From a bacterium (GTDB lineage Bacteria; Planctomycetota; UBA1135; UBA2386), in assembly GCA_030432695.1 (NCBI GenBank), contig JAUILN010000013.1:277025-341024 (forward strand): a stretch of DNA of 64,000 nucleotides, written 5' to 3'. Within the stretch, counting starts at the first letter, position 1. Every line of letters begins with the position of its first letter. Below, in pieces: positions 51,315 through 56,739 of the stretch. Under the pieces are notes generated by a model. That model worked only from the letters and a program-made list of their open reading frames with translations, was not told the origin of the DNA and ran no database searches. Made by a program: the position numbers and the translations under genes.

Positions 51315-51591
51315 GAGCGAAGGGACCCCGACCGCCGCGAAAGCATGCTTTCGCGCCCGTTGGGGGCCAGGAAGGTTAGCTCTGCGCCCCTGCCGGTCAA
51401 GAGCGCGTCGGAGGAAACACACGGGCTGCGCCGGGGCCGGCTTGTGGAAATGTGGAGAAGCCTTGATACCCTTGCGCCCCGCCGGACAGGTCCGTCCCGA
51501 GCGTCGGAGGCATCGTGCCTTCGCGGCGGGCGCCGGCGAAGAATCAGGGCGGTGGTCGGTCAGCCACCGTCGAGCGACTGGGAGGTCCCCG

Positions 51592-52497
51592 TTGGTCAAG
51601 AAGACTTCGATCCTGGAGAAGCTGCGCAGCCGGCTTCGTTCGTCCGTCGTCCACGTCGACGACTCGTCGCGTTCCGGCGCGATGGGACGCGATGGCGGCG
51701 GGGGATCCGCGCCCCGGGTCAGCATGCCCGATCGTGCCGCGTCGCAGCCTGCCACTCCCGAGCCCGCACCGCGCGTCGATGCGGTGGCCCGGCCGCTCGC
51801 CGAGCGGGCCTCGAGCCGCAAGCTCAGCCACCAGGAAGAGGCGACGGTCGCGATCAAGGACGGCTTCCAGGAGCTGGCGAGCCTGTTGCGCGGCATGCAG
51901 GCACGGGTCGACGACCAGGGCCGGCGCGTCGCCGACGTCACCGAGGGCATCGTCCGCCTACCCGAACTCGGGGAGCAGCAGATCGCGCTGCTGCGCCAGG
52001 TCGCGGACCGGCTCGAGCGCCAGGACGCGGCGCAGCACGAGATCGCCAGTCGGCTCGGCGAGCTGCCCGAGACCCTGCGCGGGGTCCGTGAAGCGCTCGA
52101 TCGCGCCGCCGCGACCGATGCGCGCACCGCCGAGACCCTCGGCGAGTTCCGCTCGCACATGTCGCGGATCCAGGACTCGATGGGACAGATGGTCGAGCAC
52201 TCGCGGCGCAGCTCCGAGGCGGCCGGCAAGCTGGCGACGCGCCCCGACGAGCAGGCCCGTGAACTGGTCGACGAGATGGCTCGCGAACAGCGCGCGGTGC
52301 AGGGCGAGATCGTCGAGCAGCTCCAGGCGTCGACCGCCGGACAGGTGCAGACCCTCCGCGACGCGCAGGCCGATCAGGCCAACCGACTCGGCAAGCTGGT
52401 CGAGGACGGCACCCGCACCAATCGGGCGATCCTGATCCTGCTGGGACTGGTGTTCGCCGCGCTGGTGGTCATCGCCGGCGTGCTCGCCTCGTCCTGA
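51592..52497 (+). CDS. coiled-coil protein with single C-terminal TM (tail-anchored)
   Basis: TTG start with GGGAGG RBS; long charged helical region; C-terminal AILILLGLVFAALVVIAGVLASS. Confidence 0.65.
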   Translation: MVKKTSILEKLRSRLRSSVVHVDDSSRSGAMGRDGGGGSAPRVSMPDRAASQPATPEPAPRVDAVARPLAERASSRKLSHQEEATVAIKDGFQELASLLRGMQARVDDQGRRVADVTEGIVRLPELGEQQIALLRQVADRLERQDAAQHEIASRLGELPETLRGVREALDRAAATDARTAETLGEFRSHMSRIQDSMGQMVEHSRRSSEAAGKLATRPDEQARELVDEMAREQRAVQGEIVEQLQASTAGQVQTLRDAQADQANRLGKLVEDGTRTNRAILILLGLVFAALVVIAGVLASS

Positions 52498-52513: not shown

Positions 52514-53179
52514 ATGGTCCAGAACCGCGCCGCGGCCGGCGGTCACGAACACAATGCCGGCCGGCGGATCTGGCTGATCCGTCACGGCGAGACCACCGGT
52601 GGCTCGTCGCTGCGGCTCTGGGGTGCCACCGATGTGCCGCTCTCCGATCTCGGTCGCCAACAGGTCGCCAGTCTCGGTCCGTTCCTGCGCCACGTCGGTT
52701 TTCGTGCGCTGGTGCACTCGCCGCTCTCCCGCGCGATCACCTCGGCGCAGGTCGTGGGCGAGCAGTTGGGTGGTCTCGCCCCGTCCTCGTTCGAGTGCGA
52801 GGAAGGCCTGCGCGAGGTCGACTTCGGCGAACTCGAAGGGCAGACCGTGGCGGAGGTCCAGGCCGAGCGACCGGGTTGGCACGCGGCCTGGATGCGTGGC
52901 GACATCGAGGGCTTTCCGGGGGGAGAGACCCTCGACGGATTCGCGGCGCGCGTCGCAGGTGCCGTCGATGCGGTCCTGGCCCGGCATCCCGAGGGTGATC
53001 TCTGCGTGGTCGCCCACCGTGGTGTCGTGAAGAACGCTGTCTGCCATCTGACCGGACTGCCGCGCCCGCTGGTCCGGGCCTGGCCGCTCGACCTCGGCAG
53101 CGCGACCGTGGTGGTCGAGGAGGGCGGGCGGTTCCTGCTGGATCGCTACAACCTGGTGGCGCCGGCGGATTCGGCGTAG
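52514..53179 (+). CDS. histidine phosphatase (phosphoglycerate mutase-like) family
   Basis: WLIRHGETTGGS, VHSPLSRAITSAQ, LREVDFGELEG, VVAHRGVVKNA. Confidence 0.92.
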   Translation: MVQNRAAAGGHEHNAGRRIWLIRHGETTGGSSLRLWGATDVPLSDLGRQQVASLGPFLRHVGFRALVHSPLSRAITSAQVVGEQLGGLAPSSFECEEGLREVDFGELEGQTVAEVQAERPGWHAAWMRGDIEGFPGGETLDGFAARVAGAVDAVLARHPEGDLCVVAHRGVVKNAVCHLTGLPRPLVRAWPLDLGSATVVVEEGGRFLLDRYNLVAPADSA

Positions 53180-53249: not shown

Positions 53250-55151
53250 ATGTCCAGGATCGAGACCACAGCCATGTCGATTTCCGCAGCCCTCGCCCTG
53301 TCCGCGGTGCTAGCCGCCACTCCCCAGGACCCCTTCGCCGATGCCGTGCAGGAGGTCGAGCAGCAGGCCGGCCTGGACGCGGCGGCAGCAGACTCCCATG
53401 CCCGGATCGCCGCGCCGGAGCGGGCTCAGGTCAAGGCGGTGAAGTCGCCGGCATTCGTGGGGGCGGTGCGGGCCGCGGGTGCGGCGGCAATGGACCAGCA
53501 GACCTCGATGCTGAGTCCCGACGACGAGGCCGAACTGCTCGATCGTCTGTTCACCGCCGTGCGCGCCGGCCAGGGGATCAAGGGGCGGGGCCCGAAGGTG
53601 CCGCTCCGGCCGAGCATCGACGACTTCGTAAAGACCACCGAGCACGCCTGGCGCGATTTGTTCCGGGCGCTCGGCTCGGGACGACGACTGTACGATGTCG
53701 CGGCCCACATGCTGACCGCGGTCGACTCGATCCGCGAGGAACGCGCCAATCTCGAGGGCTTCGGCAAGCAGGACGCCAAGGTCCTGGCCGAGCGGTTCGA
53801 GCGGGCCGGCGACGTCGACCTGCCGACCGTGCTGAACTGGACCGAGGAGATCGTCCGGTTGGCGGTGGCGCTCGACCGCGACGACCTGCGCGAGGAGTGG
53901 CGTCGCAAGGAGACCCGCTCTCCCCGTTCCGACCACGTGGTGCAGGGCGACGTGTTGATCGACCGTGACACCGCGGCAGGGCGTCTGGTGGTCGGAGGCT
54001 TCGGCAAGAACAGCTACGACTGTGCGCAGATCGCGATCCTGATCGACCTCGGAGGCGACGACGAGTATCGCGGCGCTGCCGGTGGAGCCGGTGAAGAGCG
54101 CGAACTCGCGGTGGTCGTCGACCTCGGCGGCAACGATCGCTACGAGGCGATGGGGGAGGCCCTGGGGAGCGCGATCTTCGGGATCGGCGTGCTGGTCGAC
54201 GTTGCGGGCGACGACACCTATGAAGCGACCGTGCGCGCCGCCGGCTTCGGCAGTGCCGGGGTGGGGGCCTTCCTGGACCTCGCCGGGGACGACACCTACC
54301 GGCTCGGCGACCAGTGCGGTGGCGTGGGGCTCGCGGGCATCGGTCTGTTCCTCGATGCCGCGGGCAACGACGACCAGCGGGCCGGCGTGCAGAGCTTCGG
54401 GGTCGGTCTGCCGGGTGGTCTCGGGCTCGCCTGGGACGCCGCGGGCAACGACCAGCGCGAACTCGGGCGGGTCCGCAAGCAGCTTGCCGATGCGGCGTCG
54501 ACGACATCGTCCGGCGAGGGGCAGGAGGTCAGCGTCGGTCTCGGGGTGGGGATCGGCATCCTGCCGGTCCTCGACGGCGGCGCTGGGGTGTTCATCGACT
54601 CGATGGGCGACGACGACTACCGGACCGCCGGGCTCGCGCTGGGCGTGGGAATCCGTGGCGGCGTCGGCCTGTTCCGCGACGACGCGGGCCAGGATCGCTA
54701 CCAGGGGCAGGACGGTGTGCTGGGCGTCGGCTACGCGCACGGCATCGGTCTGTTCGTCGATGCCGGCGGCCACGACGGCTACCAGGCGCGGCGTCTGGCC
54801 TACGGCTGCGGCGAGGCCAGCGGCTACGGCGCGTTCCACGATCTCGGCGGCGGCGACGCCTATGGCGGCACCTGGCCGGCGCTGGGTGCCGCGCGCCGCG
54901 GGGGTGCCGGCGCGTTCGTCGACGGTGGCGGACTCGACACCTACGTGTTCAGCTCGGGAACGACCGATTGGCGGTTGGTCGCGACCGACGAGTCCAAGGG
55001 CCGTGCGGTCGGCGTGTTCCTGGACGTCGGCACCGAGGAGGACCGCTTCGCGTTCACCGGGCGCGCCAAGCCGGAGCCGGGCGTGCTGTCGATCGAGAGC
55101 AGCGGCGAGGGGGATGCGCGCGAGGATCACCTGATGCTGCGCGAGCACTGA
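53250..55151 (+). CDS. exported repeat protein with ~12 copies of a ~26-aa GxFxDxxGDDxY motif
   Basis: N-terminal hydrophobic segment (MSISAALALSAVLAATPQ); repeats aligned by eye from IAILIDLGGDDEY to VGVFLDVGTEEDRF. Confidence 0.8.
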   Translation: MSRIETTAMSISAALALSAVLAATPQDPFADAVQEVEQQAGLDAAAADSHARIAAPERAQVKAVKSPAFVGAVRAAGAAAMDQQTSMLSPDDEAELLDRLFTAVRAGQGIKGRGPKVPLRPSIDDFVKTTEHAWRDLFRALGSGRRLYDVAAHMLTAVDSIREERANLEGFGKQDAKVLAERFERAGDVDLPTVLNWTEEIVRLAVALDRDDLREEWRRKETRSPRSDHVVQGDVLIDRDTAAGRLVVGGFGKNSYDCAQIAILIDLGGDDEYRGAAGGAGEERELAVVVDLGGNDRYEAMGEALGSAIFGIGVLVDVAGDDTYEATVRAAGFGSAGVGAFLDLAGDDTYRLGDQCGGVGLAGIGLFLDAAGNDDQRAGVQSFGVGLPGGLGLAWDAAGNDQRELGRVRKQLADAASTTSSGEGQEVSVGLGVGIGILPVLDGGAGVFIDSMGDDDYRTAGLALGVGIRGGVGLFRDDAGQDRYQGQDGVLGVGYAHGIGLFVDAGGHDGYQARRLAYGCGEASGYGAFHDLGGGDAYGGTWPALGAARRGGAGAFVDGGGLDTYVFSSGTTDWRLVATDESKGRAVGVFLDVGTEEDRFAFTGRAKPEPGVLSIESSGEGDAREDHLMLREH

Positions 55152-55191: not shown

Positions 55192-56739
55192 ATGACCGCG
55201 ACCCCACGCCTGCGTTTCGCCCCTTCCCCGACCGGTCCGCTGCACATCGGCGGCGCCCGCACCGCGCTCTACAACTGGGCCGCGGCCCGCGCCCAGGGCG
55301 GCTCGTTCCTGCTGCGCATCGAGGACACCGACCGCGCGCGCTCGACCGAGGAGTCGCTGCGGCAGATCCTCGCCGGGCTGCGTTGGGTCGGCATCGATTG
55401 GGACGAAGGTCCCGAGGTTGGCGGCGCGCACGGACCCTACTTCCAGACCGAGCGACTGGAGCTCTATCAGCGCTACGCGCAGCAGCTGATCGACGGCGGC
55501 CACGCCTACGAGTGCTTCGCGACTCCGGAGGAAGTGCAGGAGGGGCGGGAGAAGCTCCAGGCTGCCGGACAACGGCCGATGTACGACCGCCGCCACCGCG
55601 ATCTGTCGGCTGCCGAGCGCGACGCGCTGCGCGCCGAGCGCGGTCCGGGCAGCCTGCGGTTCCGGATGCCGCTCGACCAGCAGTGGACCCTTCCCGACCT
55701 GTGCAAGGGCGACGTGTCGATCAACCTGGCCGAACTCGACGACTGGGTGATGATCCGGCCGGACGGCATGCCGACCTACAACTTCGCCTGCGTGGTCGAC
55801 GACCTGGAGATGGGCATCACCCACGTGGTGCGCGGCGAGGAGCACCTGATGAACGGCTTCAAGCAGGCGGTGCTATTCGACCTGCTCGGTGCCGCGGCGC
55901 CGCAGTACGCCCACATCCCGTTGATCCTCGGCAAGGGCGGCAAGAAGCTCAGCAAGCGCGAGGCGAGCGTCGACATCCTCGAGTACCGCGACAAGGGCTA
56001 CGTGCCCGAGGCGGTGTTCAACTACATCACCCTGCTCGGCTGGAGCTTCTCCGGCGACCAGGACGTGTTCTCCAAGCAGGAGATGCTGGCGAAGTTCCGG
56101 ATCGAGGACATCGGCAGCTCGGGCTCCAAGTTCGACGACGAGAAGCTGCGCTGGATGTCGGGCGACTACATCCGGCGGATGGATCCCGCCGAGCTGGTCG
56201 AGCGGGTCCGGCCGTTCGTCGGTGAGGCGATTCCGGCCGCCGTGTTCGACGCAGCACCGGGCCTCGTCCGCAACGCGGTGGCCTGCTACCAGGAGCGCAT
56301 CGAGCTGTTCGCCGAGATCGCCGACAAGGTGGCCTGGGTGTTCGCCGATGCGGTGAGCTTCGACGACCAGGCTCAGAAGAAGATGACCAAGCACGCCGAC
56401 GTGGTGCCGCACCTCGCTGCCTACGCCGATCTGCTGGAGTCCTCGAACCTGCCGTCGTCGGACCCGGCCGCGCGCGCCGCCGCCGACGCGGCGTTCCCGT
56501 TGCCGAGCAAGCAGGGGGCGGAGCCGGTCGCCGAGCCCTGCATGGGCCCCGCGGCACTCGAGGCGCAGCTCCGCGCCTTCTGCGAGGAGCGCGACATCAA
56601 GTTCGGGCACGTCGTCCATCCGGTTCGCGCCGCGTTGACCGGGACGACCGCCGGGCCGGGCCTGTTCGATTGCGTGTTCCTGTTGGGCAGGGACAAGGCG
56701 GTGGCGCGGTTGCGGGCGGCTGCCGCGAGCAACGGCTGA
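55192..56739 (+). CDS. gltX: glutamyl-tRNA synthetase
   Basis: RFAPSPTGPLHIGGARTALYNW, LRIEDTDRARST, GKKLSKREASV. Confidence 0.97.
   Translation: MTATPRLRFAPSPTGPLHIGGARTALYNWAAARAQGGSFLLRIEDTDRARSTEESLRQILAGLRWVGIDWDEGPEVGGAHGPYFQTERLELYQRYAQQLIDGGHAYECFATPEEVQEGREKLQAAGQRPMYDRRHRDLSAAERDALRAERGPGSLRFRMPLDQQWTLPDLCKGDVSINLAELDDWVMIRPDGMPTYNFACVVDDLEMGITHVVRGEEHLMNGFKQAVLFDLLGAAAPQYAHIPLILGKGGKKLSKREASVDILEYRDKGYVPEAVFNYITLLGWSFSGDQDVFSKQEMLAKFRIEDIGSSGSKFDDEKLRWMSGDYIRRMDPAELVERVRPFVGEAIPAAVFDAAPGLVRNAVACYQERIELFAEIADKVAWVFADAVSFDDQAQKKMTKHADVVPHLAAYADLLESSNLPSSDPAARAAADAAFPLPSKQGAEPVAEPCMGPAALEAQLRAFCEERDIKFGHVVHPVRAALTGTTAGPGLFDCVFLLGRDKAVARLRAAAASNG

Follow-up and report, generated by a model that had tools for sequence, protein, structure and literature searches.

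A gene in the window (the whole stretch of 64,000 nucleotides analyzed here) encodes a member of a large, multi-phylum bacterial family that is absent from the protein-family libraries searched. Its repeat domain is predicted to be a beta-solenoid of 12 coils with aspartates aligned along one edge. We consider it moderately probable that the protein is a Sec-exported, probably Ca2+-stiffened 12-coil rod serving as an extracytoplasmic scaffold for protein-binding modules. More tentatively, the family as a whole may represent an undescribed, widespread class of fixed-length metal-ladder beta-solenoids, with 12 non-interchangeable coils and a one-edge line of Ca2+ held via the non-RTX turn DxxG[DN]D, acting with HEAT, PDZ, or TPR modules as an extracytoplasmic scaffold. 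The gene, its parts, and its neighbors are located in Table 1.

Table 1. Positions in the window of the solenoid gene, its predicted parts, and the adjoining genes.
Feature	Position	Strand	Remarks
Upstream neighbor, coiled-coil-like protein	51442..52497	+	44-52% identity in 4 orthologous loci, order conserved
Upstream neighbor, histidine phosphatase superfamily	52514..53179	+	PF00300, 1.4e-49; adjacency conserved
Whole ORF	53250..55151	+	633 aa counted from ATG 53250; likelier start ATG 53274
Probable signal peptide (MSISAALALSAVLAATPQD)	53274..53330	+	Hydrophobic start aligning with those of 5 orthologs
Helical N-terminal domain, residues 67-218	53448..53903	+	AF2 helices
Predicted 12-coil beta-solenoid domain, residues 228-606	53931..55067	+	AF2 pLDDT 92.5, pTM 0.91; relatives match nearly end to end
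Coils 1-6	54045..54446	+	First Asp D266, 291, 317, 343, 369, 396
Loop region between coils 6 and 7 (originally read as an insert)	54459..54572	+	pLDDT about 55-61, low model confidence
Coils 7-12	54597..55067	+	First Asp D450, 477, 504, 531, 558, 592
Downstream neighbor, glutamyl-tRNA synthetase (GltX)	55192..56739	+	PF00749, 8.3e-95; 40-bp gap; conserved in 5/5 named orthologous loci

The repeats lie where the original prediction had placed them (54030-55070), but the reading frame that holds them is larger (53250-55151). The second ATG is the likelier start because five orthologs, 38-41% identical to the window protein over the full length in alignment, begin at the equivalent methionine just ahead of a hydrophobic segment. 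In the window protein this short hydrophobic N-terminus ends near PQDP. The proposal that the protein is secreted rests on this N-terminus, which is like those of the orthologs, and on the signal or lipoprotein-like N-termini that a crude test detected in most family relatives. We infer from the sequence that the window protein is exported by the Sec route. A helical N-terminal domain is common to most other subgroups of the family (hhalign probability 84-99% in nine of ten comparisons), whereas the N-terminal domain of the window subgroup had no detectable relation to it (hhalign <3%). Long neighboring reading frames in this high-GC DNA, some of them antisense to the gene itself, were regarded as spurious.

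Eleven D/E-x-x-G-x-D motifs were found in the window protein, starting at the first aspartates listed in Table 1 for coils 1-11, with spacings of 25, 26, 26, 26, 27, 54, 27, 27, 27, and 27 residues (the 54 being the step from 396 to 450). Shuffling the solenoid region 2000 times gave a mean of 1.5 motifs and a maximum of 7. A twelfth coil, at D592, is slightly degenerate and is conserved in all 67 aligned relatives. The earlier description of about 12 repeats of some 26 residues was therefore confirmed, with a period of 25-27 residues, a motif count far above that of shuffled sequence, and the degenerate coil completing the dozen. Mean identity between coils of the window protein is 35% at the amino acid level and 50% at the DNA level, which indicates that the repeats are ancient and not recent duplications.

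The number of coils is fixed in the family and their spacing nearly so. All 67 aligned relatives have 12 coils, and for most coils the spacing is nearly constant and coil-specific: 26 residues from coil 4 to coil 5 in 67 of 67, 27 from coil 5 to coil 6 in 65, and 27 from coil 7 to coil 8 in 64. The insert of about 25 residues that had been ascribed to one repeat is present, but it is not a peculiarity of that repeat, since a long spacing stands between coils 6 and 7 in the 67 relatives (mostly 46-68 residues, most commonly 47). The consensus coil reads G-V-G-L-L-x-D-x-x-G-[DN]-D-x-Y-x-A-x4-Q-G-x-G. Among the 804 cells of the alignment (67 relatives by 12 coils) the second aspartate of the motif (Asp5) is Asp in 802; the first (Asp0) is Asp or Glu in 795 (768 Asp, 27 Glu), and the residue just ahead of Asp5 is Asp or Asn, freely exchanged. 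Candidates were collected with a pattern for coil 1 or with another, unrelated one, so that selection slightly inflates the conservation of coil 1; no such selection acted on the motifs of the remaining coils. Two carboxylates per coil, kept over 12 coils and many phyla, represent unusual conservation for a repeat. At consensus positions -6 to -1 of most coils, aliphatic residues occupy one face of the first strand and Gly-Gly-Leu the other; this flat face of small residues may be a packing surface for a partner or for dimerization.

Searches of Pfam, NCBIfam, and PDB sequences with the window protein gave no match worth naming, and nine relatives compared with curated family libraries gave none over the repeats. 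The repeats were likewise unmatched when Pfam, NCBIfam, PADLOC, and PDB sequences were compared with the protein and the family profiles. A match to a well-described repeat family, which would have undercut the original prediction, was looked for in Pfam, NCBIfam, and PDB sequences, and none was found. Weak matches to DNAPolymera_Pol, a synthetic nanobody, designed helical proteins, and PTPN21 were judged to be chance. The window protein matched no PADLOC defense model; HEAT-containing PADLOC models were matched only by HEAT segments fused to, or encoded beside, the solenoids of relatives. The family was not matched in phage and plasmid collections and so, as far as those collections show, is not a mobile-element gene. 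No existing description of the family was found among open-licence papers.

The repeat-profile search of the Planctomycetota that had been suggested found the family in 114 of 294 sampled genomes of the phylum; the 368-position domain model was spanned nearly end to end in almost all of the matches listed. Within the same family or order, 19 of 61 genomes matched, the window's own genome counted. One scan of named genomes, queried with the ortholog alignment because the wider family alignment was too diverse, returned 276 relatives. The best 80 of these, mostly from metagenome-assembled genomes, include members of the Planctomycetota, Nitrospirota, Nitrospinota, Ignavibacteriota, Zixiibacteriota, WOR-3/Stahliibacteriota, Eiseniibacteriota, Cloacimonadota, Verrucomicrobiota, Spirochaetota, SAR324, Bdellovibrionota, Pseudomonadota, and Thermodesulfobacteriota. 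A tree of 67 domains placed the six members of the window's group in one clade (100/100). The same genome carries a second copy with 12 coils (L002, contig C5:196905-198122), which falls in another well-supported clade (100/99); it adjoins a reading frame that by eye resembles a KDPG-type aldolase. The family is thus widespread, being present in roughly two in five genomes sampled from the phylum and in many other phyla, yet neither curated library has a model for it. Such a model would allow many "hypothetical proteins" to be named.

AlphaFold (AF2), run on the 67 aligned domain sequences, gave a confident beta-solenoid (mean pLDDT 92.5, pTM 0.91), and the five models were similarly confident. 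In the model short parallel strands are stacked in register, the arrangement that defines the beta-solenoid class. The first strand ends exactly on Asp0 in 12 of 12 coils and is followed by a short loop to Asp5 and then by the second strand, so that the Asp residues are predicted to stack. The solenoid with ladders of stacked aspartates that had been proposed from the sequence is therefore well supported by the prediction, and the Asp residues, whose misalignment would have spoken against it, are aligned in the model. AF2 is known to predict beta-solenoids too readily when the repeats are perfect (PMC11795689). The divergence of the coils and the diversity of the alignment lessen this concern here and do not remove it.

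Net charge of the domain is -30 in the window protein, with a median of -29 over the 67 domains. Near-absolute carboxylate conservation, this net charge of about -30, and a Ca2+ beta-helix as the best structural neighbor lead us to favor Ca2+ binding. The Asp pairs could instead be structural caps, with Asp0 and Asp5 hydrogen-bonded to turn backbone amides in Asx-turn ladders and the metal-free solenoid used as a binding surface. Ladders of Asp or Asn at turns are found in metal-free solenoids, and position 4 of the motif takes Asn as well as Asp, as capping would allow. Asn caps equally well, yet at Asp5 the only exceptions to Asp are one Thr and one Gly, and leaving 24 stacked carboxylates and a net charge of -30 with no cations to offset them would carry a high cost. 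We regard capping as unlikely, though worth weighing: near-invariance of Asp5 next to a position that swaps Asp and Asn is better explained by a carboxylate metal ligand than by simple turn capping.

According to the favored Ca2+-stiffened rod, the protein would leave the cytoplasm via the general secretory route. Each coil would consist of a strand ending in Asp0, the turn xxG[D/N], Asp5, and the next strand with its conserved Tyr; stacking of the coils is predicted to superpose neighboring Asp pairs into a line of carboxylates along one edge. Ca2+ would most likely lie between successive turns, as in the ice-binding beta-helix of Marinomonas, which has a single Ca2+ edge. Folding would be confined to the high-Ca2+ surroundings outside the cytoplasm, and the ions would stiffen the rod. 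The rod probably functions outside the cytoplasm as a scaffold on which protein-binding modules are presented or positioned. A weak fold match, a turn that is not canonical for RTX, and the solenoid bias of AF2 count against the Ca2+ rod. The family is a simple test case for whether a calcium ladder can be built with a non-RTX turn, in a rod of invariant coil number.

The scaffold role is suggested by relatives in which the rod is fused to PDZ, HEAT, or TPR domains or is encoded immediately ahead of a HEAT gene. Fusions to HEAT were detected in 12 of 53 relatives, to PDZ in 8, and to TPR in 1, and further cases were also found; every fused domain found is a protein-binding module, and enzyme domains fused to the solenoid were not observed among the relatives examined. 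HEAT repeats were present in 13 of 47 co-directional downstream genes, often directly adjoining the solenoid gene, and were not among the families matched by at least 3 of 43 upstream genes. Seven downstream proteins scanned singly were all HEAT proteins. Together, fusion and downstream adjacency link the rod to HEAT proteins. HEAT-repeat genes approximately 0-60 bp downstream of solenoid genes were seen at L032, L034, L038, L044, L071, and L096, from Zixibacteria, WOR-3, Eisenbacteria, and others. A different observation is that the downstream gene at +1 is conserved among the Pirellulales and related planctomycetes (L061, L062, L072, L084, L088); those at L062 and L084 had no Pfam match.

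The window protein has no HEAT or PDZ partner alongside, and the scaffold role is carried over to it from other subfamilies. Gene order around it is conserved in the orthologs (coiled-coil-like protein, histidine phosphatase, solenoid, GltX, then rhomboid and TPR genes) and points to no function. The coiled-coil-like protein, encoded upstream of the histidine phosphatase in the orthologous loci, has a C-terminal hydrophobic segment and only sub-threshold Pfam matches.

Foldseek with the domain model returned nothing at E 0.001 or better (best E 0.3). The four chains of 3p4g held ranks 1, 2, 3, and 5 (E 0.3-1.0, prob 0.51-0.72), with a TM by target of about 0.45-0.49, and an earlier full-length AF2 model from six sequences had the same top match. 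This structure is the Ca2+-bound ice-binding beta-helix of Marinomonas primoryensis, with 12-13 repeats of xGTGNDxuxuGGxuxGxux (PMC3492233), in which Ca2+ is bound at one edge only (PMC6891781). No sequence relation to Ca2+ proteins, those of the MpAFP type included, was detected; a PDB-sequence profile search at E 10 gave only noise.

A surface adhesin of the RTX/ice-binding group, binding ice, diatoms, or other cells, would account for the ice-binding region of MpAFP as the top fold match and for one Ca2+-type turn per coil, as in MpAFP (PMC6891781). We consider such an adhesin very unlikely: PF00353 is absent from the protein and its genome, the repeat consensus has no regular Thr/Asx array, an N-terminal signal is likely and not a C-terminal type I secretion signal, the protein is short and without adhesin extender domains, and relatives are not confined to cold habitats. 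Polysaccharide lyases and hydrolases account for many parallel beta-helices, and sugars could be bound or cleaved by acidic ladders, but an enzyme outside the cytoplasm, or a beta-helix that binds glycans, with its active or binding site at the acidic edge is likewise very unlikely, as residue conservation is even across the coils and not concentrated at one site, pectin-lyase-type folds appeared only at noise level in Foldseek (prob 0.05 or less), and relatives carry no fused enzyme domain.

Among known systems, the proposed Ca2+-stiffened rod most resembles region IV of MpAFP/MpIBP (3p4g). The domain as predicted and MpAFP are both single, long, unbroken beta-helices, of 12-13 coils in MpAFP, with one edge turn G-[N/D]-D per coil and a hydrophobic residue two past the Asp. 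The coils of MpAFP have 19 residues in contrast to 26-27 in this family, and identity is 11-13%. G-N-D is preceded by G-T in MpAFP, whereas here variable residues stand in that place, preceded by the extra conserved Asp0, and there is no regular Thr/Asx face. MpAFP also belongs to a 1.5-MDa adhesin exported by type I secretion, unlike the window protein.

A recently described beta-solenoid, the Knotted Solenoid, likewise lies outside the older families; it is described as exclusive to a specific bacterial group (Brevundimonas) and nearest to pentapeptide repeats, and the parts consulted describe no Asp-turn ladder (PNAS 2026, PMC13123833). As far as those parts go, this different, Brevundimonas-restricted fold was rejected as the identity of the family (PMC13123833).

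RTX repeats (HemolysinCabind, PF00353; GGxGxDxUx) have two turns and 18 residues per coil and two Ca2+ edges; the family described here has one turn motif in 25-27 residues, a fixed coil number, and a Sec-type N-terminus. PF00353 had no match at E 1 in the window protein, nor any in relatives or elsewhere in its genome. DxxG[D/N]DxY can be aligned on GGxGxDxU so that the Gly, the Asp, and the hydrophobic position match, while the first turn Gly of RTX is replaced by Asp (95%) and the second by a variable residue. In the RTX turn any residue but Gly at the first position would clash, through its side chain, with the Asp ligand, and the second position needs a positive-phi Gly (PMC6891781). Because of this clash the turn in this family must differ from that of RTX, and Asp0 may itself be a metal ligand. 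The original prediction set the repeats apart from RTX; the longer period and the lack of PF00353 agree with it, but the two are not unrelated, as each coil combines a single half-turn of RTX-like type (xxG[DN]DxY) with a longer second arm that lacks any such motif. The comparison reveals the family as a variant of the one-edge, RTX-like beta-solenoid and not a wholly new kind of system.
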